A stretch of 64,000 bases of DNA from Aureimonas sp. AU4 (GTDB taxonomy: Bacteria > Pseudomonadota > Alphaproteobacteria > Rhizobiales > Rhizobiaceae). The position numbers and the translations under genes were made by a program. The number at the start of each line of letters is the position of its first letter. The first letter of the stretch is position 1. Where the stretch lies: positions 1 through 64,000 of the forward strand of contig NZ_BBWK01000030.1 of NCBI RefSeq assembly GCF_001463765.1, in the 5' to 3' direction. Shown here in pieces: positions 39,504-61,213 of this stretch. The notes beneath the pieces were generated by a model that did not search any database, was not told the origin of the DNA, and worked only from the letters and a program-made list of their open reading frames with translations.

Positions 39504-39738
39504 CGTGTGATACTGCTCCGTAGAACGCAGTGGAACCGGTAGCGTCCTTGGCTTCGACCACCTCTTTCAGCCCACGGCCGGCGTCAAACGATCGGATCGT
39601 CGGCATGTCTCGCCGGCGGGCGACAGGGTTCCCGCGACGCGGACCCCGGCAGTGCCGCGGAGACGTGTCCCGGCTCGCATCCCCGACCACCGGCCGTGCC
39701 GGCTCTTTCGGCGGAACGCCGCCGACGAAGGACAGACC

Positions 39739-40989
39739 ATGACGCTTTTCGCAGCCCTGCGGCTTCCGCGGGAAATCCTCTTCGGCAAGGGCCAGCGTGC
39801 GGCCCTTGGAACGGTCGCCGCCCGTCTCGGGCGACGCGCCCTTGTCTGCACGGACGCGCGGCTGAGCGGGGACCCGCAGTTTCAGGCCATGATGGCGGAC
39901 CTCCGCCACCATGGCCTGGCGGTGCGGGTCGACGACGGCGTGCTTCCCGATGTTCCGCGCGACTCGGCCCATGCCTGCGCCGCGGCCGCCCGGGACTTCG
40001 CGCCCGACCTCGTGATCGGGATCGGCGGCGGGAGCTGTCTCGACATGGCGAAGTGCGCGTCGCTGCTTCTGGCCCACGGCGGCTCGCCGGCCGATTACTA
40101 CGGCGAGCGGCGCGTGCCGGGGCCGATCCTGCCCGTGATCGCCGTGCCGACCACGGCCGGCACCGGCTCGGAGGTGACCCCCGTCGCCGTCCTGTCGGAC
40201 CCCGATCGGCTCCTCAAGGTAGGTATCTCCAGCCCTCATCTCGTCCCGCAGGCGGCGATCTGCGATCCCGACCTGACGCTGACCTGCCCGCCGCAGCTGA
40301 CGGCGATCGCCGGGGCGGACGCCCTGACCCATGCGATCGAGGCCTTCATGGCCAAGCGGCGCGAACCCGACGCCGACCTCGCCCAGGCGCACGTCTTCGT
40401 CGGCAAGAGCGCCCTCACCGACCATTTCGCGCTGCTGGCGATCGAGCTTCTGTCCCGAAGCCTGGAGCGGGCCTTCCGCGACGGCGGGGACGAGGCGGCG
40501 CGCGCCGACGTCATGATGGGGGCGCTGGCGGCCGGCTGCGCGTTCGGAACCGCGGGCACGGCGGCCGCCCACGCGATCCAGTATCCGATCGGCGCGCTGA
40601 CCCATTCCGCCCATGGCCTCGGCGTTGCCGCGCTGTTGCCCTATGTGATGACCTTCAACCGCTCGGCCTGCCTGCCGGAACTGGCGCAGATCGGCGCGGC
40701 GATGGGGCTGGATGCACAGGGCGAGCCCCTGGATGTCTTCGCCGACCGCGTGGTCGAGCGGATCGCCTCGTTGCTGGGCGCGATCGGCATTCCGCGCTCT
40801 CTCGACGCACTCGGCCTGCCGCGCGACAAACGGGACTGGACGGCCGAGCAGGCGCTCGGCATCGAGCGCCTCATCAAGAACAACCCGCGCCTCGTCGATC
40901 TCGATGCGATGAAGCGCCTCGTCGCGGCCGCGTTCGACGGCGACCGCCAGGCTCTGACCGAGCCGCAGCCTGCAAGGAGTGCGTCATGA
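39739..40989 (+). CDS. Iron-containing alcohol dehydrogenase
   Basis: A 416-residue group III (Fe-ADH) enzyme, NAD(P)-dependent. The nucleotide-binding segment GIGGGSCLDMAK (about 93-104) and VPTTAGTGSEVTPVAV (about 136-151) are followed by metal ligands in GADALTHAIEAF and HSAHGLGVA. It is also similar to 4-hydroxybutyrate and maleylacetate-type reductases. It is the first gene of a three-gene unit with an aldehyde dehydrogenase (ATGA overlap) and an alpha/beta hydrolase, suggesting sequential oxidation of an alcohol to a carboxylate. AAGGA lies 7 nt before the ATG. Confidence 0.9.
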   Translation: MTLFAALRLPREILFGKGQRAALGTVAARLGRRALVCTDARLSGDPQFQAMMADLRHHGLAVRVDDGVLPDVPRDSAHACAAAARDFAPDLVIGIGGGSCLDMAKCASLLLAHGGSPADYYGERRVPGPILPVIAVPTTAGTGSEVTPVAVLSDPDRLLKVGISSPHLVPQAAICDPDLTLTCPPQLTAIAGADALTHAIEAFMAKRREPDADLAQAHVFVGKSALTDHFALLAIELLSRSLERAFRDGGDEAARADVMMGALAAGCAFGTAGTAAAHAIQYPIGALTHSAHGLGVAALLPYVMTFNRSACLPELAQIGAAMGLDAQGEPLDVFADRVVERIASLLGAIGIPRSLDALGLPRDKRDWTAEQALGIERLIKNNPRLVDLDAMKRLVAAAFDGDRQALTEPQPARSAS

Positions 40990-42467
40990 ACCACATCTCC
41001 GCCCCGCCCGCCGCCGATACGCCGGCGCCCATCGACTGCGCGCCCTTCGCCAAGGGTCTCTTCATCGACGGCGAATGGCGGCAGACCGAGGCGCAGATCG
41101 CCGTCGTCGATCCGTCCACGGAACGCGAGATCGCTCATGTCGCCGACGCCGGCGTCGAGGAGGCGATGGCGGCGGTGGACGCCGCCGACCGGGCCGCGCC
41201 CCTGTGGCGCGCCAAGTCGCCGCGCGAGCGCTCCGAGATACTGCGCCGCTGCTTCGAGCTGATGACCCAACGCGCCGACGAGCTCGCCGCGCTGATCTCG
41301 CTCGAGAACGGCAAGGCCCTGGTGGATGCCAGGGGCGAGGTCGCCTATGCCGCCGAGTTCTTCCGGTGGAATGCGGAGGAAGCCGTGCGCCTGTCGGGCG
41401 AGCTCGGTCTGGCGCCCTCGGGCTCGAACCGCATTCTGGTAGACTACGTACCGGTCGGCATCGCCCTTCTGGTGACGCCCTGGAACTTTCCGGCCGCCAT
41501 GGCGACGCGCAAGATCGCCCCGGCGCTGGCGGCGGGCTGCACGGTGGTCCTCAAGCCGGCCAGCGAGACGCCGCTGACCGCCTACGCGCTCGCCGGACTC
41601 TACCGCGAGGCGGGCGTGCCGGACGGCGTCGTCAACGTCGTCACAACGTCGCGTCCGGGGCCGGTCACCGCCGCCATTCTGGACGACCCGCGCGTGCGCA
41701 AGCTTTCCTTCACGGGCTCGACCGGCGTCGGCCGCACGCTGCTCGCCGAGGCCGCCCGAACCGTCGTCGGCTGCGCGATGGAACTCGGCGGCAACGCTCC
41801 CTTCCTCGTGTTCGACGATGCCGACCTCGACGCGGCCCTGGACGGCGCGATGATTGCCAAGATGCGCAACGCCGGCGAGGCCTGCACCGCTGCCAACCGC
41901 TTCTACGTCCAGAACGGCATCTACGACCGCTTCGTCGAGGGACTGGTCGGGCGCATGGCCGCGCTGACCGTCGGCGCGGGCACCGATCCCGCGACCCGCT
42001 GCGGTCCGATGATCACACGCAAGGCCGTGGAAAAGATCGAGTATCTGGTGGCGGACGCCGTCGCTCGCGGGGCGAAGGTCCTGCAGGGCGGCAAGGCGCT
42101 GAGCGGCTCGGGCTACTTCTACCCGCCGACGGTGCTCGGCGACGTGCCGCCCGATGCGCTCCTGATGCGCGAGGAGATCTTCGGTCCCGTCGCAGCGCTC
42201 TGCCGGTTCGACAACGAGGACGAGGCGGTCGCAGCCGCCAACGATACGGAGTTCGGCTTGGCGAGCTACGTCTACTCGCGCGACCTCAAGCGCGCGCTCG
42301 GCGTCGCCGGCCGCATCGAGGCGGGCATGGTGGCCGTCAACCGGGGCCTCGTCTCCGACCCGGCGGCCCCTTTCGGCGGCGTCAAGCAGAGCGGGCTCGG
42401 GCGCGAGGGCGGGCATCACGGCGTGCTCGACTATCTCGAGCCCAAATACATCGCCGTCTCCTTCTGA
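40986..42467 (+). CDS. NAD(P)-dependent aldehyde dehydrogenase, succinate-semialdehyde dehydrogenase-like
   Basis: A 493-residue ALDH. Motifs are TPWNFPAAMATRKIAPALAAG (about 160-180, coenzyme site), FTGSTGVGR, MELGGNAPFLVF (general-base Glu, about 262) and NAGEACTAANRF (catalytic Cys, about 297). The overall pattern is closest to GabD-type succinate-semialdehyde dehydrogenases, but aldehyde specificity in this family is not readable from motifs. It is translationally coupled to the Fe-ADH upstream and followed 11 nt later by the hydrolase. Confidence 0.9.
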   Translation: MNHISAPPAADTPAPIDCAPFAKGLFIDGEWRQTEAQIAVVDPSTEREIAHVADAGVEEAMAAVDAADRAAPLWRAKSPRERSEILRRCFELMTQRADELAALISLENGKALVDARGEVAYAAEFFRWNAEEAVRLSGELGLAPSGSNRILVDYVPVGIALLVTPWNFPAAMATRKIAPALAAGCTVVLKPASETPLTAYALAGLYREAGVPDGVVNVVTTSRPGPVTAAILDDPRVRKLSFTGSTGVGRTLLAEAARTVVGCAMELGGNAPFLVFDDADLDAALDGAMIAKMRNAGEACTAANRFYVQNGIYDRFVEGLVGRMAALTVGAGTDPATRCGPMITRKAVEKIEYLVADAVARGAKVLQGGKALSGSGYFYPPTVLGDVPPDALLMREEIFGPVAALCRFDNEDEAVAAANDTEFGLASYVYSRDLKRALGVAGRIEAGMVAVNRGLVSDPAAPFGGVKQSGLGREGGHHGVLDYLEPKYIAVSF

Positions 42468-53934: not shown

Positions 53935-55614
53935 TCAGGCTTCCGCAGGCAGGGGTTCGGCCGCCTGCGCGTCGAAGCTCACGCGCTGGTAGGGAACGCT
54001 CGCCCGCTCGAGCGGGGGGAGACCGCGGATCGCGTCGCTCAGCTTCTCGGCGAGCATGATGGTCGGCGCGTTGAGATTGCCCGAGGTGATGGACGGCATG
54101 ATCGAGGAGTCGACGACGCGCAGCGCATCGATGCCGACGACCCGGCCCTCTGGGTCCACCACCGTCGACGGGTCGCCGGGATCGCCCATGCGGCAGGTGC
54201 AGGAGGGATGCAGCGCGCTCTCGACGTGCCGCTCGACGAAGGCGTCGATCTCGGCGTCGCTCTGGACCGCCTCGCCCGGCGCGATCTCGCGGCCGCGATA
54301 CCGGTCGAAGGCCGGCTGGCGGAAGATCTCGCGCGTCAGGCGCACGCAGGCCCGCATCTCGCGCCAGTCGTCCGGATGGCTCATGTAGTTGAAGAGGATG
54401 CGCGGCGCCTCGGCCGGATCGGCGGAGGCGAGGCGCACATGGCCCTTCGACTTGGAGCGCAGCGGCCCGACATGGGCCTGGAAGGAATGCTCGCTCGCCA
54501 GTCCCTTGCCGTCGTAGGTCACGGCGAGCGGCAGGAAGTGGTACTGGATGTCGGGATAGGGCACGTCCGGCGAGGAGCGGATGAAGCCGCAGCTCTCGAA
54601 GTGGTTGGTGGCGCCAAGGCCCCGCTTGGTGAGGAGCCAGCGTGCCCCGATCTGACCCCTGGCGATCGTTCCGGTCGAGCGGAACAGCGTGATCGGCTCG
54701 CGGCAGGCGACCTGGAAGTAGAATTCCAGGTGGTCCTGCAGGTTCTCGCCGACGCCCTGCAGATCGTGCGCGACGGCAATGCCGTGCGAGCGCAGTTCCT
54801 CCGCCGGACCGATGCCCGACAGCTTCAGAAGCTTGGGCGAGTTGATCGATCCCGCCGACAGGACGACCTCGCGGCCCGCTCGCGCCAGGCGCGCCTGCGG
54901 ACCGACGCGGTAGGCGACGCCGACCGCGCGCCGCCCTTCCAGGACGACGCGCTCCACCAGCGCCCCGGTGCGCACCACGAGGTTCGGGCGGTTCAGCGCG
55001 GGCCTGAGGTAGGCGTTGGCGGTGGACCAGCGGCGGCCCTTGTGGACCGTCATGTCCATGCGCCCGAAGCCCTCTTGGGATCCGCCGTTGACGTCGAGGT
55101 TGGTCGGATGGCCGGCCTGCGCGGCCGCCTCGACGAAGGCTTGGTAGAGGGGGTTCTCCAGCGTGCCGTAGGAGGTGTGGAGCGCGCCCTCGCCGCCCCG
55201 GTAGTCGTCCGCGCCGCTCTGGCGGTTTTCAGCGCGGCGGAAATAGGGAAGCACGTCGGGATAGCTCCAGCCGCGCGCGCCCTCATGCTCCCAACGGTCG
55301 AAGTCGGCCGGCGCGCCGCGCACGTAGACCATGCCGTTGATCGAGGACGAGCCGCCGAGCACCTTGCCGCGCGGCACGTTCATGCGCCGGCCGCCGAGAT
55401 TGGGCTCCGGTTCGGAACTGTAGCCCCAGTTGTACTTTCGCATGTTCATGGGGATCGAGAGCGCGCTCGGCATCTGGATCAGGACCGAGCGGTCCGAGCC
55501 GCCGAACTCGAGAAGAAGCACGCTCGAACGTCCGTCCTCCGAAAGGCGGTTGGCGAGCACGCAGCCCGCCGAGCCCGCGCCCACCACGACATAGTCGAAG
55601 GTCTCGATCTCCAT
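53935..55614 (-). CDS. betA: Choline dehydrogenase (GMC flavoprotein)
   Basis: A 559-residue GMC oxidoreductase oxidising choline to betaine aldehyde at the membrane. FAD motif [20 protein letters not shown] (about 6-25); GMC signatures [18 protein letters not shown] (about 80-97) and [18 protein letters not shown] (about 260-277); active-site His in [10 protein letters not shown] (about 462) and the Asn in SGNLNAPT (about 506). The ATG at 55614 is set by GGGGGAG 6 nt before. It follows the BetI-BetB gene by 106 nt and is convergent with yidC. Other GMC alcohol oxidases are possible, but the choline importer next door supports BetA. Confidence 0.92.
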
Positions 55615-55720
55615 GCCGGCTCCCCCAAGGCGCCCGCAGGGCCGGGCGCGCCGCCCGGCCGCTCGCACGGCGCGTGGATAAAAGAACCGAACCCCGCCCG
55701 GCGCGCGCGCCGGGCCGGAC

Positions 55721-57823
55721 TCAGTAGGGCGCGTCGACGCGCCCGAGATTGACGAAGACGCTCTTCACCTGGGTATGGGCCTCCAGCGCCGCGCGGCCGT
55801 TCTCGCGCCCGAGACCGGATTCCTTGGCGCCGCCGAAGGGCAGCTCGATGGGCGTGATGTTGTAGGTGTTGATCCAGGTCGTGCCGGCCTCGAGGCGTGC
55901 CACGACGCGATGCGCGCGGGCGAGGTCGCGCGTGAAGACGCCGGCGGCCAAGCCGAAGCGCGTGTCGTTGGCGCGGGCAACCACCTCGTCCTCGTCCCGG
56001 AACGAGAGGACCGTCATCACGGGTCCGAAGATTTCCTCGCGCACGATGCGCATGGAATCGGCACACGCATCGAAGATCGCGGGCGCGACGAAGAAGCCGG
56101 CGCCAAGGCCCCTCTCCGTGACGCGCGAGCCGCCGCACAGGAGCTTGGCGCCCTCGCGCACGCCCTCGTCCACATAGGAAAGGACCTTGCGCATGTGCGC
56201 TTCCGAGATCAGCGCGCCGACCTGCGTCTCCGGGTCGAGCGGATCGCCGATGCGCAGCGCCTCGGTACGGGCGACGAGCTTTTGGAGAAAGGCCTCGCGT
56301 ACCGACTCATGCACGAAGACGCGCGTGCCGTTGGAGCAGACCTCGCCAGCGGAATAGAAGTTGGCGAGCATCGCCCCGCCCACCGCGTCGCCGAGGTCGG
56401 CGTCCGCGAAGACCACGAGCGGCGACTTGCCGCCGAGCTCCAGCGTCACCTGCTTGAGGGTCGAGCTCGCGTCCCGCATCACGGCCTTGCCGGTGCCGAC
56501 CTCGCCGGTCAGCGAGATCTTCGCGATGCCGGGGTGGCGCGACAGGAGCCGACCCGTCGAGCCGTCGCCCTGAACGACGTTGAAGACGCCCTTCGGCAGG
56601 CCGCACTCGTCCATGATCTCGGCAAGCTTCAGCGCGGTCAGCGGCGTCAGCTCGGCCGGCTTGAAGACGACGCTGTTTCCAGCCGCCAGCGCGGGTGCCG
56701 CCTTCCAGCAGGCGATCTGAAGGGGATAGTTCCAGGCGCCGATCCCTGCGACGACGCCCAGCGGTTCGCGCCGGGTGTAGCCGAAGGCCATGGGCCCGAG
56801 ATCGACGTGGTCGCCCGACAGCCCGGCCGCGAGCCCCGCGAAGAACTCGATGCAGTCCGCACCCGACAGGACGTCCACCGTGGACGTCTCGGAGATCGGC
56901 TTGCCGGTGTCGCGGGCTTCCAGGACCGCCAGCTCCTCGTTGCGCTCGCGCAGCCGCGCGGCGACGCGCATGAGGATGCGTCCGCGCTCCGTGCCGGTCA
57001 TCGCGCCCCAGCCGCGCTGGGCCTCGGCGGCCGCCGCCACCGCGCGGTCGACGATCTTCGCGTTTGCCACCGCGACCTCCGCCAGAACCTCGCCGGTCGC
57101 GGGGTTGAGGGTCTGAAAGACCTGCGGGTCGGACCCGGCCGCCACGTAGTCCCCGCCGACATGGCTTGTCAGGAGGCGCAGGCCCGGCGCCGCGCGACGC
57201 GGGCGGTCGGCGGGACGGGGGGCCGCGCCCGCGATCTGCGCGTCCGTGAAGGCGGACGCCGTGGCACGCGCGGCGAGGCTGTCGGTCTCGGCGACCTCGG
57301 CCAGCGAGGCGCGCAGCCAGAGGCCGTCGATGATCGCCGCGATCGCCTGCGCGATGCGCGGCGCCTCCTCCGGGGCGACGAGGCTTCGCAGGTCGAACAC
57401 AAGGTTGGAGAGCATGCGCCGCTGGTAGACGCGCTGCACCCGCTTCAGCCGCGCCGAATGCGGGACCTGCCCCCAGAAGGCGAGCCAGACGGCCGAGGTT
57501 CGCGCATCGAACTCCTCGGCCGCAAGGTTGGCGTCGATCACGGCCTGGATGCGCTCGCGCGGCCCCTCCGCCCGGCGCAGGCGCAGGCGTGCCGCGTCGG
57601 AGATGCGCCGCGCCAGATGGCGCAGCGTCGCCTCCAGAAGTCCGTCCTTGTCGCCGAAGTAGTGCGCGACCAGCGAGGGCGCGACGCCCGCCCGCCCCGC
57701 GATCTCGGCAAGGCTGGAGGCCGAGAAGCCGATCTCGGCGAGCGACTGGATCGTCGCGTCCACCAGCTGGCGGCGGCGCTGGTCCTCGGTCGTGCTCCGA
57801 ACGGCGGCGGCGCTGCGGCTCAT
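55721..57823 (-). CDS. betI-betB: BetI-BetB fusion: TetR-type repressor fused to betaine-aldehyde dehydrogenase
   Basis: A single uninterrupted 700-residue frame. Residues about 1-200 are a complete BetI: TetR HTH ([20 protein letters not shown], then [24 protein letters not shown], about 20-66) and the C-terminal sensor domain ending [10 protein letters not shown] (about 165-174) with its final helix. After a Pro/Ala/Arg linker (about 199-219) comes a full-length NAD-dependent betaine-aldehyde dehydrogenase: [40 protein letters not shown], general-base Glu462 (LELGG) and catalytic Cys496 (AGEVCSNG). No ATG, GTG or TTG gives BetB an independent start before its conserved N-terminus. AGGAGG precedes the ATG at 57823. 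A BetI-type operator lies 42 nt upstream. A frameshift or assembly error is possible but not indicated. Confidence 0.9.
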
Positions 57824-57864
57824 GCTTCAAACCTCCTGACGGACGGCGCGACCTTACCGCTCCT

Positions 57865-57882
57865 TGATTGTTCGTTCAATCA
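57865..57882. promoter_or_regulatory. BetI-type operator
   Basis: TGATTGTTCGTTCAATCA is a perfect inverted repeat (TGATTG / CAATCA) around TTCGTT; its core ATTG-N2-CGTTCAAT resembles known BetI sites. It lies 42 nt before the fused betI-betB start and on the same intergenic stretch as choX, so it can control both divergent units. The remainder of this 326-nt gap shows no gene; a TTGACA at 58033-58038 may belong to the choX promoter, without a clear -10. Confidence 0.75.
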
Positions 57883-58149
57883 GCTCGCCTTGCGTCGTCT
57901 TGGAACAGGCGGACGTGCTGCCGGCTGCCCCGATTTTCCTCACCGGACGCATCGGATACGGGCAGGTTGCCTGCGCGAAAGGCCGCCGTTCGACATGGCG
58001 GCGGGCTTCGAACGGTCGTTCAGCCCGTATGCTTGACAATCCGCCTTTCCGACCCCCGAATGATGGCAAGATCGTGCGATTGTGCGCCCGATCGACGGCC
58101 TGCTCCTGTATCTTCCGCGCTTCCGAAGCCCTGAAGGACCTCACGCAGC

Positions 58150-59103
58150 ATGCTCGCCAACCGCCTCGCTCGCGCCCTTCCCCTCGCCCTTGCCGCCGCG
58201 TTCCTGGGCGGACCCGCAGCATGGGCCGCCGAGCCGGCCAGCTGCCGGGCGGTGCGCTTCGCCGATGTCGGCTGGACCGACATCACGGCCACCACGGCCT
58301 CCGCCTCCACCATCCTGAAGGCGCTCGGCTATGAGCCGCGCACCGACGTCCTCGCCCTGCCCGTCACCTTCGCCTCGCTCAAGAACCGCGACATCGACGT
58401 CTTCCTCGGCAACTGGATGCCGACCATGGAGGCGGACCTGAAGCCCTATCGCGACGACGGCTCGATCGAGGTGATCCGCGCCAATCTCGAGGGCGCGAAA
58501 TACACGCTCGCCGTTCCCACCGCGCTCTACGACGCCGGGCTCACGAGCTTTGCCGACATCGCGCGCTTCAAGGACAAGCTGGACAACAAGATCTACGGCA
58601 TCGAGCCGGGCAACGACGGCAACCGCCTCATCCTCGGCATGATCGAGAAGAACCAGTTCGGCCTCGGCGGCTTCGAGCTGGTGGAATCCTCGGAGCAGGG
58701 CATGCTCGCCCAGGTCGCGCGCCAGACCCGGCAGGATAAGCCCATCGTCTTCCTCGGCTGGGAGCCCCATCCGATGAACGCGAACTTCAAGATCTCCTAC
58801 CTTTCCGGTGGCGACGAGGTGTTCGGCCCGAACTACGGCGGTGCGACGATCTACACGCTGACGCGCAAGGGCCTGTCCACGGACTGCCCGAACCTTGGCA
58901 AGCTCGTGTCGAACCTCGTCTTCTCGCTGCCCATGGAGAACGAGATCATGGGCGCCATCCTCAACGACGGCAAGGACGCGGGCGTGGCCGCCAAGACCTG
59001 GCTGGCGGCTCATCCCGACGCGTGGCGCCCCTGGCTCGAGGGCGTGACGACCTTCGACGGCAAGCCGGGCACCGAGGCGGTCGAGGCGGCGCTCGGGGGC
59101 TGA
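58150..59103 (+). CDS. choX: Choline ABC transporter substrate-binding protein ChoX
   Basis: A 317-residue periplasmic binding protein of the OpuAC/glycine-betaine family with a signal peptide ending AAWA-AEP (about 27). Aromatic-box candidates for the quaternary ammonium group are visible: GWTD (Trp about 42), GNWMPT (Trp about 89), KYTLAVP (Tyr about 118) and LGWEPHPM (Trp about 205). This spacing matches Sinorhizobium ChoX. It is divergent from the bet genes across the BetI operator and is the first gene of choXWV. Confidence 0.93.
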   Translation: MLANRLARALPLALAAAFLGGPAAWAAEPASCRAVRFADVGWTDITATTASASTILKALGYEPRTDVLALPVTFASLKNRDIDVFLGNWMPTMEADLKPYRDDGSIEVIRANLEGAKYTLAVPTALYDAGLTSFADIARFKDKLDNKIYGIEPGNDGNRLILGMIEKNQFGLGGFELVESSEQGMLAQVARQTRQDKPIVFLGWEPHPMNANFKISYLSGGDEVFGPNYGGATIYTLTRKGLSTDCPNLGKLVSNLVFSLPMENEIMGAILNDGKDAGVAAKTWLAAHPDAWRPWLEGVTTFDGKPGTEAVEAALGG

Positions 59104-59147: not shown

Positions 59148-60014
59148 ATGTACGACTGGCTGACGGAGCACAAGATACCCCTCGGCCTCTGGCTGCGCGG
59201 GCTGGTTGACGGCCTGACGACCCACGGCCAGGGCTTCTTCGACGCCGTCTCGCTGGCGCTCGGCGGCCTGATCGACGGGCTGACGGCGGGACTGGAACTC
59301 GTGCCCCCGCTCGTCTTCGTGGCGCTGGTGGGTGCGGGCGCCTATCTCCTGCACCGCTCCGTGGCGCTCGCCGCCTTCGCGATTCTGTCGCTCCTCCTGA
59401 TCATCAATCTCGGCTACTGGACCGAGACGGTGCAGACCCTGTCGCTGGTATTCTGCGCCACGCTGGTCTGCGTTGTGGTGGGCGTGCCGCTCGGCATCGC
59501 GGCGGCGCACCGCCCCTGGGTCTACACGGTGCTGCGGCCCTTTCTCGACCTGATGCAGACGATCCCGACCTTCGTCTACCTCATCCCGACCCTCGTTCTG
59601 TTCGGCCTCGGCGCGGTGCCCGGCCTGATCTCGACCGTGATCTTCGCGATCCCCGCTCCGATCCGCCTCACCTATCTCGGCCTGTCCTCGGTGCCGACGG
59701 CGCTGCGCGAGGCGGCCGCCGCCTTCGGCGCGACGCGCCGGCAACTCCTCTTCAAGGTCGAGCTGCCCCATGCGCTTCCCACCATCATGGCCGGCGTCAC
59801 GCAATGCATCATGCTCTCGCTCTCCATGGTCGTGATCGCGGCGCTGGTGGGCGCCGACGGGCTCGGCAAGCCGGTGGTGCGCGCGCTCAACACGGTGAAC
59901 ATCGGCATGGGCTTCGAGGCGGGGCTCGCGATCGTGATCCTCGCCATCCTCCTCGACCGCATCTGCAAGCGGCCGGAAGCGCGGCGCGCGGTGCGCCGGG
60001 AGCGCGGCGCGTGA
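59148..60014 (+). CDS. choW: Choline ABC transporter permease ChoW
   Basis: A 288-residue ProW-type permease with about six helices. The cytoplasmic coupling loop is YLGLSSVPTALREAAAAFGAT (about 184-204, marked by its start YLGLSSVP), followed by FKVELPHALPTIMAGV. The ATG at 59148 has AAGG 8 nt upstream; an earlier in-frame start would run back into choX. It forms the channel for ChoX-bound choline and overlaps choV by GTGA. Confidence 0.92.
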   Translation: MYDWLTEHKIPLGLWLRGLVDGLTTHGQGFFDAVSLALGGLIDGLTAGLELVPPLVFVALVGAGAYLLHRSVALAAFAILSLLLIINLGYWTETVQTLSLVFCATLVCVVVGVPLGIAAAHRPWVYTVLRPFLDLMQTIPTFVYLIPTLVLFGLGAVPGLISTVIFAIPAPIRLTYLGLSSVPTALREAAAAFGATRRQLLFKVELPHALPTIMAGVTQCIMLSLSMVVIAALVGADGLGKPVVRALNTVNIGMGFEAGLAIVILAILLDRICKRPEARRAVRRERGA

Positions 60015-61213
60015 GCGGGGCGACCGGGTTGCCGGCGATCGAGTTTCGCGGCGTCGACATCCTCTTCGGGCGCGACCAGGCGGGCGCGTTGCGGCTTCTG
60101 GACGGCGGCGCCGACCGCGCGCGCATCCTCGACCGGACCGACGTCGTGCTGGGCGCGGCCGGCGTCTCGTTCCGCGTCGAGCCCGGCGAGATCTGCGTCC
60201 TCATGGGGCTGTCGGGGTCGGGCAAGTCCACGATCCTGCGCGCCGTGAACGGGCTGAACGAGGTGGCGCGCGGCGAGGTGCTGGTCAGCCACGAGGGACG
60301 GCCGGTGGATGTCGCGCGCTGCGACCCGCGCACGTTGCGGGCGCTGCGCACCCACACCGTCTCCATGGTGTTCCAGCAGTTTGGCCTGCTGCCTTGGCGC
60401 ACGGTGCGCGAGAATGCCGGCCTCGGGCTCGAGCTCCAGGGCGTCGGCACGGCGGAGCGGCGGCGCGTGGTGGACGAGAAGCTCGCCATGGTCGGGCTCG
60501 CGGCCTGGGGCGACAAGTACGCCCACGAGCTGTCCGGCGGCATGCAGCAACGCGTCGGCCTCGCTCGTGCGTTTGCGACCGACGCCCCGATCCTCCTGAT
60601 GGACGAGCCCTTCTCGGCGCTCGACCCTTTGATCCGCACCAAGCTGCAGGACGAGCTCCTCGATCTGCAGAAGACGCTGCGCAAGACCATCCTCTTCGTC
60701 AGCCACGACCTCGACGAGGCGATGAAGCTCGGCAACCGCATCGCCATCATGCAAGACGGACGCATCGTGCAGGCCGGCAGCGCGGAGGACATCCTTCTCT
60801 CGCCCGCGACACCCTATGTCGCCGAGTTCGTGCGCCACGTGAACCCGCTCAACGTACTGCGCGGGGCCGCCCTGATGCGGCCCGCCCACGCACTGCGGCG
60901 CGAGGGCGGCGAGCTTCTCTTGGACGAGGCGGGGCGCGTGCGTCTGGCGGTGGACGAAAGCGACCGGCCGACCGCCGTGCGCATCGACGGGGACACGGCG
61001 CGGCTCGGGCGGGCGCGCGCGGAAGACGGGGCGGTGGAGGGAGCCTGCGACGTGGTGGTCGCGCCCGTCGATCTGCGCCTGCGTGCGGCGATCGCGCTGA
61101 AGCGGCGGACCCACCACCCGATCCTTCTCGTCGACGATCTCGGCCGCCTGGCCGGCCTGTGCGACGACGACGAAATCTATCGCGGCCTTCTGCAGCGATC
61201 CGGCGGCTCCTGA
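60011..61213 (+). CDS. choV: Choline ABC transporter ATP-binding protein ChoV
   Basis: A 400-residue ProV-type ATPase. Walker A GLSGSGKST (about 68-76), Q-loop MVFQQFGLLPWRTV, signature LSGGMQQR, Walker B ILLMDEPFSALD and switch His VSHDLDE are intact. The C-terminus carries a CBS-like region (about 290-395). The start is GTG at 60011, overlapping the choW stop; N-terminal residues extend well before the P-loop as usual for ProV proteins. It completes the choline importer feeding the betaine pathway encoded on the other strand. Confidence 0.93.
   Translation: MSGATGLPAIEFRGVDILFGRDQAGALRLLDGGADRARILDRTDVVLGAAGVSFRVEPGEICVLMGLSGSGKSTILRAVNGLNEVARGEVLVSHEGRPVDVARCDPRTLRALRTHTVSMVFQQFGLLPWRTVRENAGLGLELQGVGTAERRRVVDEKLAMVGLAAWGDKYAHELSGGMQQRVGLARAFATDAPILLMDEPFSALDPLIRTKLQDELLDLQKTLRKTILFVSHDLDEAMKLGNRIAIMQDGRIVQAGSAEDILLSPATPYVAEFVRHVNPLNVLRGAALMRPAHALRREGGELLLDEAGRVRLAVDESDRPTAVRIDGDTARLGRARAEDGAVEGACDVVVAPVDLRLRAAIALKRRTHHPILLVDDLGRLAGLCDDDEIYRGLLQRSGGS

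Follow-up and report, generated by a model that had tools for sequence, protein, structure and literature searches.

A natural BetI-BetB fusion in a choline divergon of Aureimonas: a probable single-chain repressor-enzyme

Why should a repressor of a catabolic pathway be built on the same polypeptide chain as an enzyme of that pathway? The question is raised by a locus of Aureimonas sp. AU4, located in the window, by which we mean the whole stretch of 64,000 nucleotides that was analysed (contig NZ_BBWK01000030.1, positions 1 to 64,000), where one gene encodes both a BetI-type repressor and the betaine-aldehyde dehydrogenase BetB. Few repressor-enzyme fusions are, to our knowledge, well known. 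Trigger enzymes of E. coli number five by one count, as given in the excerpted text of PMC8249747. A description of a BetI-BetB fusion was not found in the open-access literature, as far as its text was available, and most subscription journals lie outside this scope. From our analysis it is probable that the protein is a single-chain repressor-enzyme, derived from one ancient betI-betB fusion and belonging to a choline-induced divergon, with a dehydrogenase tetramer that is possibly bivalent towards DNA.

The fused gene and its choline divergon

The locus is arranged as a divergon, with choVWX pointing in one direction and betI-betB, followed by betA, in the other. Its features are the following:

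53935..55668, minus strand: betA, choline dehydrogenase (TIGR01810, 802 bits, cut-off 732.1; start uncertain)
55721..57823, minus strand: betI-betB fusion gene, one open frame, 700 aa, 74.5 kDa
55757..57130, minus strand: aldehyde dehydrogenase (BetB) domain, Aldedh, residues 232-689 (PF00171)
57143..57145, minus strand: in-frame GTG at the junction, residue 227, within the N-terminal stretch of BetB, unconserved
57167..57229, minus strand: linker of about 21 residues, rich in A/P/R/G, residues 199-219
57233..57562, minus strand: TetR_C_6, BetI-type ligand/dimer domain, residues 88-197 (PF13977)
57629..57766, minus strand: TetR_N helix-turn-helix, residues 20-65 (Pfam PF00440)
57832..57837, minus strand: AGGAGG, Shine-Dalgarno-like, directly 5' of the ATG of the fusion gene
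57865..57882, no strand assigned: predicted BetI box 1, TGATTGAACGAACAATCA, 12/14 to ATTGAACGTTCAAT
58008..58023, no strand assigned: weak candidate BetI box 2, CTGAACGACCGTTCGA, 9/14
58150..59103, plus strand: choX, choline-binding protein of an ABC transporter, divergent (TIGR03414, 466.9 bits, cut-off 379.05)
59148..60014, plus strand: choW, permease (TIGR03416, 407.9 bits, cut-off 363)
60011..61213, plus strand: choV, ATPase (TIGR03415, 526.8 bits, cut-off 483.75; start uncertain)

The fusion frame runs from the ATG at 57823 to the TGA at 55721, 700 codons without interruption. Its BetI half (residues 1-197) passes NCBIfam TIGR03384 narrowly, with 205.2 bits against a cut-off of 201.3, and its BetB half (residues 220-700) reaches two NCBIfam equivalogs, PRK13252 (768.2, cut-off 593) and TIGR01804 (680.1, cut-off 668.6). 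The single natural BetI-BetB chain, which an earlier note on this DNA had proposed from the letters alone, is thus borne out by the one frame and by both halves at or above their cut-offs, and the Pro/Ala/Arg linker of some 20 residues that it described corresponds to residues 199-219. The residue table shows N365, E462 and C496, which we take to be the catalytic Asn, Glu and Cys expected of the BetB half, all kept in the window protein; the Cys is present in 84/89 fused genes, the exceptions being three dead enzymes and two genes at contig ends. Across 62 aligned fused proteins, dead and broken fusions left out, H54, Y55, F56, D58 and K59 in TetR_N and W113, F116, W117, Y133 and D166 in TetR_C_6 are invariant. 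The AlphaFold model, like all our structure models made for a single chain, has a mean pLDDT of 84.2, confidence being lower at residues 201-220 and poor at the C-terminal end, and BetB structures are its best PDB matches (6wsa, TM 0.89 by target length). The window's genome holds no second BetI-like match, just two partial TetR matches of 34-38%, and no second BetB, the next aldehyde dehydrogenase (ALDH) standing at 45%. Elsewhere in the window, at 39652-42467 on the plus strand, adjoining frames, one resembling an alcohol dehydrogenase of the iron type and the other an aldehyde dehydrogenase, may form a small alcohol-oxidation unit; these names were assigned by eye, except the ALDH, which was named by sequence match.

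The palindrome that the note had placed upstream of the gene is also found, as box 1, which lies 41 nt from the fusion ATG, is symmetric at 14/18 positions, and as an 18-mer has its sole exact copy in the genome here, with one other site at 3 mismatches. At about the place of box 2, a locus of the A. jatrophae type (L009) has a match of 10/14. The consensus ATTGAACGTTCAAT is similar to ATTGACG*CGTCAAT, the betI box found by footprinting in Ruegeria (PMC12442346, in the part of its text available). A box of at least 10/14 is found upstream of 83/90 fused genes, against 11% in a dinucleotide-shuffle null, and one of at least 11/14 upstream of 54/90 (null 1.6%), where the base is 90 because one of the 91 loci lacks 400 nt upstream, and where the fused scores are lowered by a consensus that was chosen by hand near the free-BetI type. 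The gene order is also widely shared: tblastn with choX/betT detects an opposite-strand cho or betT gene at 74/90 fused loci, and betA lies downstream at 81/91. Among the 84 loci with at least 580 nt downstream betA is missing in three, all of them Kaistia (L063, L073, L080).

Distribution and origin of the fusion

A BetB-like match at E<=1e-150 is present in 21/21 Aureimonas genomes, and the fusion occurs as one open frame in 20 of them. In the sole Aureimonas without it (L038, genome G019), BetB groups with the gammaproteobacterial-type BetB, as if replaced by transfer. The BetI half was also scanned against one genome per species, and among the best 80 loci of 173 relatives, titled as Alpha- and Gammaproteobacteria, 77 have BetI and a BetB-like sequence in one frame; the other three have a frameshift (L075) or lie at contig ends (L096, L118). 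The 77 include two dead enzymes (L073, L080), three genes that leave their contigs (L094, L103, L106) and one apparently broken late in the ALDH (L114). A frame common to so many congeners and relatives is neither an artefact nor chance, so that an assembly error or a stop codon lost in one genome is ruled out, and the note's proposal to search relatives for the same frame leads to a point which it lacked: the fusion, judged by its sequences, is an old shared family. In L225 (genome G816), L075 and L114 a frame break lies in the dehydrogenase half and the rest is similar, which may reflect either sequencing error or recent decay.

By record title the carriers are Aureimonas, Ancylobacter, Azorhizobium, Kaistia, Methylobrevis, Rhodomicrobium, Caulobacterales and sphingomonads, as well as gammaproteobacterial MAGs, some of them Steroidobacteraceae, and a plasmid of Komagataeibacter saccharivorans (NZ_CP023037.1, L134). 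In wider draws the BetI half was matched at E<=1e-25 in 39/385 genomes of the class and 102/398 of the phylum, and among the best 30 loci of each draw the fusion was found in 4/30 and 5/30, the window's own locus being counted in each draw; the enzyme is dead in one of the four. As the loci fetched were the best-scoring ones, the fusion is a minority form. Outside the fetched loci, one match (G489) has a frame of 674 aa.

A quick BetI tree of 142 rows needs one change between its 88 fused and 33 separate rows, which points to a single old fusion. Interspersed with the fused rows are three that lack an adjacent BetB (L153 and two contig ends), so that against all other rows four changes are needed. 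In the BetB tree (129 rows) the 86 fused halves need two changes, its deep forks are poorly supported, and it neither supports nor contradicts a single origin. Both trees come from quick searches, have SH-aLRT as their sole support measure and contain long branches; the frameshifted L075 was labelled fused in both, and L096 and L118 were labelled as having no BetB in the BetI tree. Duplicate genome copies had been removed before the counts (L009-L027 except L012, L023, L026 and L027; further L136, L138-L141, L144, L147, L148, L150, L155, L157 and L160). Independent fusions in several clades are not needed for the BetI half. L153 (genome G387) has a free BetI, running from 1501, a divergent choX and, over the next 1.4 kb, no betB/betA match; its long branch is placed within the fused clade, and it could be a fusion that has lost its whole enzyme half, or a misplaced branch.

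Operator layout and dead-enzyme lineages

Operator layout tends to differ between the two groups, fused loci having two boxes and free ones a single box. Two non-overlapping boxes of at least 10/14 occur at 46/90 fused loci (null 0.6%), as compared to 1/33 separate betI-betB loci (null 2.2%). The spacing is 104-196 bp in 38 of the 46. Of two such boxes, one mostly lies close to the fusion gene and the other on the choX side. Since it may be objected that each divergent promoter needs a box of its own, we limited the comparison to loci with divergent choX, where two boxes are found at 41/72 fused and 0/23 free loci, the 23 including near relatives (for example L125, L169 and L170, or L143, L145, L149 and L151). 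With gaps of 250-450 nt the counts are 26/40 and 0/14 (Fisher p 1.5e-5), and with gaps of 150-250 nt 8/15 and 0/5 (p 0.055), p values that ignore shared descent. Free loci have instead one stronger box, the mean best box scoring 12.0 against 10.8 at fused loci; at a laxer second-box cut-off of at least 9/14 the counts become 20/52 free and 70/91 fused.

With the clades assigned by hand, two boxes of at least 10/14 are present in 14/20 Aureimonas, 11/24 Xanthobacteraceae-type, 11/11 loci of Kaistia, Faunimonas, Bauldia and others, 4/7 sphingomonad or acetobacterial, 1/5 Caulobacterales and 5/24 gammaproteobacterial or unclassified loci. Given a single origin of the fusion, and close relatives within both groups, the two-box contrast is unreplicated. 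Two boxes are also possible without fusion, as BetI2 of Ruegeria pomeroyi, a free BetI, uses two overlapping palindromes in its divergon according to the portion of PMC12442346 at hand. No helical phasing of the box spacing was detected (Rayleigh R 0.01, p~0.995, n=46), unlike what is expected of a rigid loop; flexible linkers could erase such phasing. Taken at the level of sequence, the differing target sites suggest that the enzyme part may aid the grip of the repressor on DNA.

Three members of Kaistia, namely K. granuli (L073), K. adipata (L080) and one further genome (L222), and a genome of another family (L137, genome G326) have a degenerate dehydrogenase half. The positions of N365 and C496 are gone in all four and that of E462 in L080, L137 and L222, with a Glu still aligning in L073, and all of them show deletion or degradation of the cofactor-loop region. 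In the intact pair L078/L063 dN/dS is about 0.05 for BetI and about 0.07 for ALDH; the respective values are 0.12 and 0.39 for L222/L073, 0.16 and 0.54 for L073/L080, and 0.22 and 1.16 for L137/L225, a pair for which only 274 ALDH codons were aligned; the frame of L225 is broken, its active-site letters being intact. The dead-enzyme loci keep a box at 11-12/14. With the active site lost, the BetI half constrained and the boxes kept, repression at DNA probably proceeds without need of catalysis.

This BetI is present at E<=1e-40 in 6/14 Kaistia genomes, with the dehydrogenase intact in three and dead in three. None of the three dead ones has a BetA above 48%, and of the intact ones two reach 68%; the third intact genome (G804) has at best 50%, and in G326 BetA adjoins a dead dehydrogenase, exceptions by which BetA loss and enzyme decay are linked loosely only. 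No other ALDH of more than 45% identity to BetB was found in the genomes of L073, L080 and L137. An exchange of the partner enzyme in L073 and L080 is ruled out by the alignment, which shows decay of the same BetB. An open frame cannot be taken as proof that the dead ALDH is retained, as under simulated neutral substitution the frame is still open in 4-18 of 100 runs; dead halves need not be retained as scaffolds. The dead half of K. adipata was predicted with an ALDH fold, a result favoured by the alignment input of the structure model.

A possible mechanism, its rivals and related systems

By analogy with known BetI proteins, the N-terminal BetI half would occupy the boxes that lie in the spacer separating choXWV from the fusion gene, keeping both units off until choline is present. 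Choline entering via ChoXWV would release the BetI domains from both promoters, and the C-terminal half would convert the betaine aldehyde made by BetA to glycine betaine. With a repressor on each enzyme chain, induction would raise the repressor stock 1:1 and may thereby allow a quick shut-off once choline is gone. Known BetBs are tetramers, and a dehydrogenase tetramer carrying two BetI dimers may occupy two boxes as one particle, which would fit the two weaker boxes of many fused loci as against the one stronger box of free BetI. Tentatively, and with more doubt than confidence, we suggest that through the fusion a dimeric repressor of one box became a bivalent one, scaffolded by the enzyme, that bridges two weak operators, in which quaternary structure and not catalysis would regulate, and of which some lineages would keep a pseudoenzyme body.

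The core of this explanation is shared by a simpler one, which differs at the bivalent step: a stop codon was lost, the halves work as in E. coli at a fixed 1:1 ratio, and the fusion has no regulatory meaning. We would give such plain tethering a substantial chance, though less than an even one, given that separate betI and betB adjoin in many relatives (e.g. L028, L029, L121-L125) and that the linker is variable, with a pooled dN/dS of 0.58 against 0.07 for BetI and 0.11 for BetB (13 pairs); it sits less easily with a fused clade of the BetI tree that holds no separate pair and with two boxes being commoner at fused loci. Equally worth considering, if short of being our expectation, is that the two boxes serve one divergent promoter each without any bridging. 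Their usual positions, one on the fusion-gene side and the other towards choX, and the missing helical phase agree with it, but free BetI in the same divergon, with similar gaps and at the same cut-off, has two boxes in none of the 23 loci. It would be highly improbable, in turn, that separate proteins do the work, released by cutting of the chain or with BetB made also from an internal start. The earlier note saw no ATG, GTG or TTG for BetB, which has to be corrected, as an in-frame GTG is found at 57145-57143. This codon is an Ile in A. jatrophae (L039), the junction lacks any in-frame ATG/GTG/TTG in 16/89 fused genes and combines one with an SD-like stretch in 7/89, so that a conserved internal BetB start is not seen, and several fusions have linker in place of the first BetB residues. 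Such short junctions of 23-33 aa, from SAFTDAQI to the NPATGE position, are observed in some sphingomonad and gammaproteobacterial fusions (L081, L095, L104, L117, L168), where the linker seems to stand in for those residues.

A substrate- or redox-gated trigger enzyme, in which NAD(H) or aldehyde at the dehydrogenase would alter DNA binding as in PutA, was the main idea of the earlier note, and its anatomical part has stood: an enzyme and a DNA-binding domain are on one chain, a repressor is joined to a catabolic dehydrogenase, and a transporter is divergent. The gating itself we regard as unlikely, as in four genomes the BetI half is still constrained and a box still present despite the loss of N365 and C496 and of an orderly cofactor-loop region, with E462 gone in three of them and a Glu aligning in L073, so that control by aldehyde or NAD(H) is at any rate dispensable. 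PutA consists of a ribbon-helix-helix domain and proline dehydrogenase, with one more part that has an ALDH fold. In the E. coli protein, as the sections of PMC8249747 at hand describe it, a repressor is likewise fused to a catabolic enzyme that controls its own gene and a divergent transporter, and it binds in the putA-putP spacer only. In the fusion protein TetR/BetI takes the place of ribbon-helix-helix and a flavin domain is absent; Pfam gives TetR_N, TetR_C_6 and Aldedh only, with neither a ribbon-helix-helix nor a proline dehydrogenase domain. It has trigger-enzyme anatomy, and its logic comes closest to that of PutA, though it is no PutA itself.

The preferred reading, a single-chain repressor-enzyme of a choline divergon, can also be set beside other known systems. 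LacI-type bivalent repressors are tetramers of two DNA-binding dimers that engage two operators; in the fusion, by contrast, a metabolic enzyme would bring the proposed tetramer together. The betIBA/betT locus of E. coli shares the same two families, the pathway and a BetI box before betI, but it has a free betI directly before betB and betA where the fusion locus has one chain, it uses the transporter BetT where the window locus has the ABC transporter choXWV, and in K-12 it carries one strong box of 13/14 where fused loci often have two weaker ones. The two-BetI system of Ruegeria pomeroyi is alike in its choline-modulated BetI boxes within a choline divergon and differs in its two free BetI proteins and overlapping palindromes, with no fusion mentioned in the accessible part of the source (PMC12442346).

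The significance of the locus is in a TetR-type repressor-enzyme fusion that spans two classes and comes with natural loss-of-enzyme variants and unfused divergons for comparison, a set of fused, unfused and dead-enzyme loci by which it can be asked directly what joining a repressor to an enzyme does for regulation. Such a fusion is easily overlooked, at least one database record being named by its enzyme half: the fused protein of Komagataeibacter saccharivorans (L134) is annotated as betB alone, and its repressor half is left unnamed.
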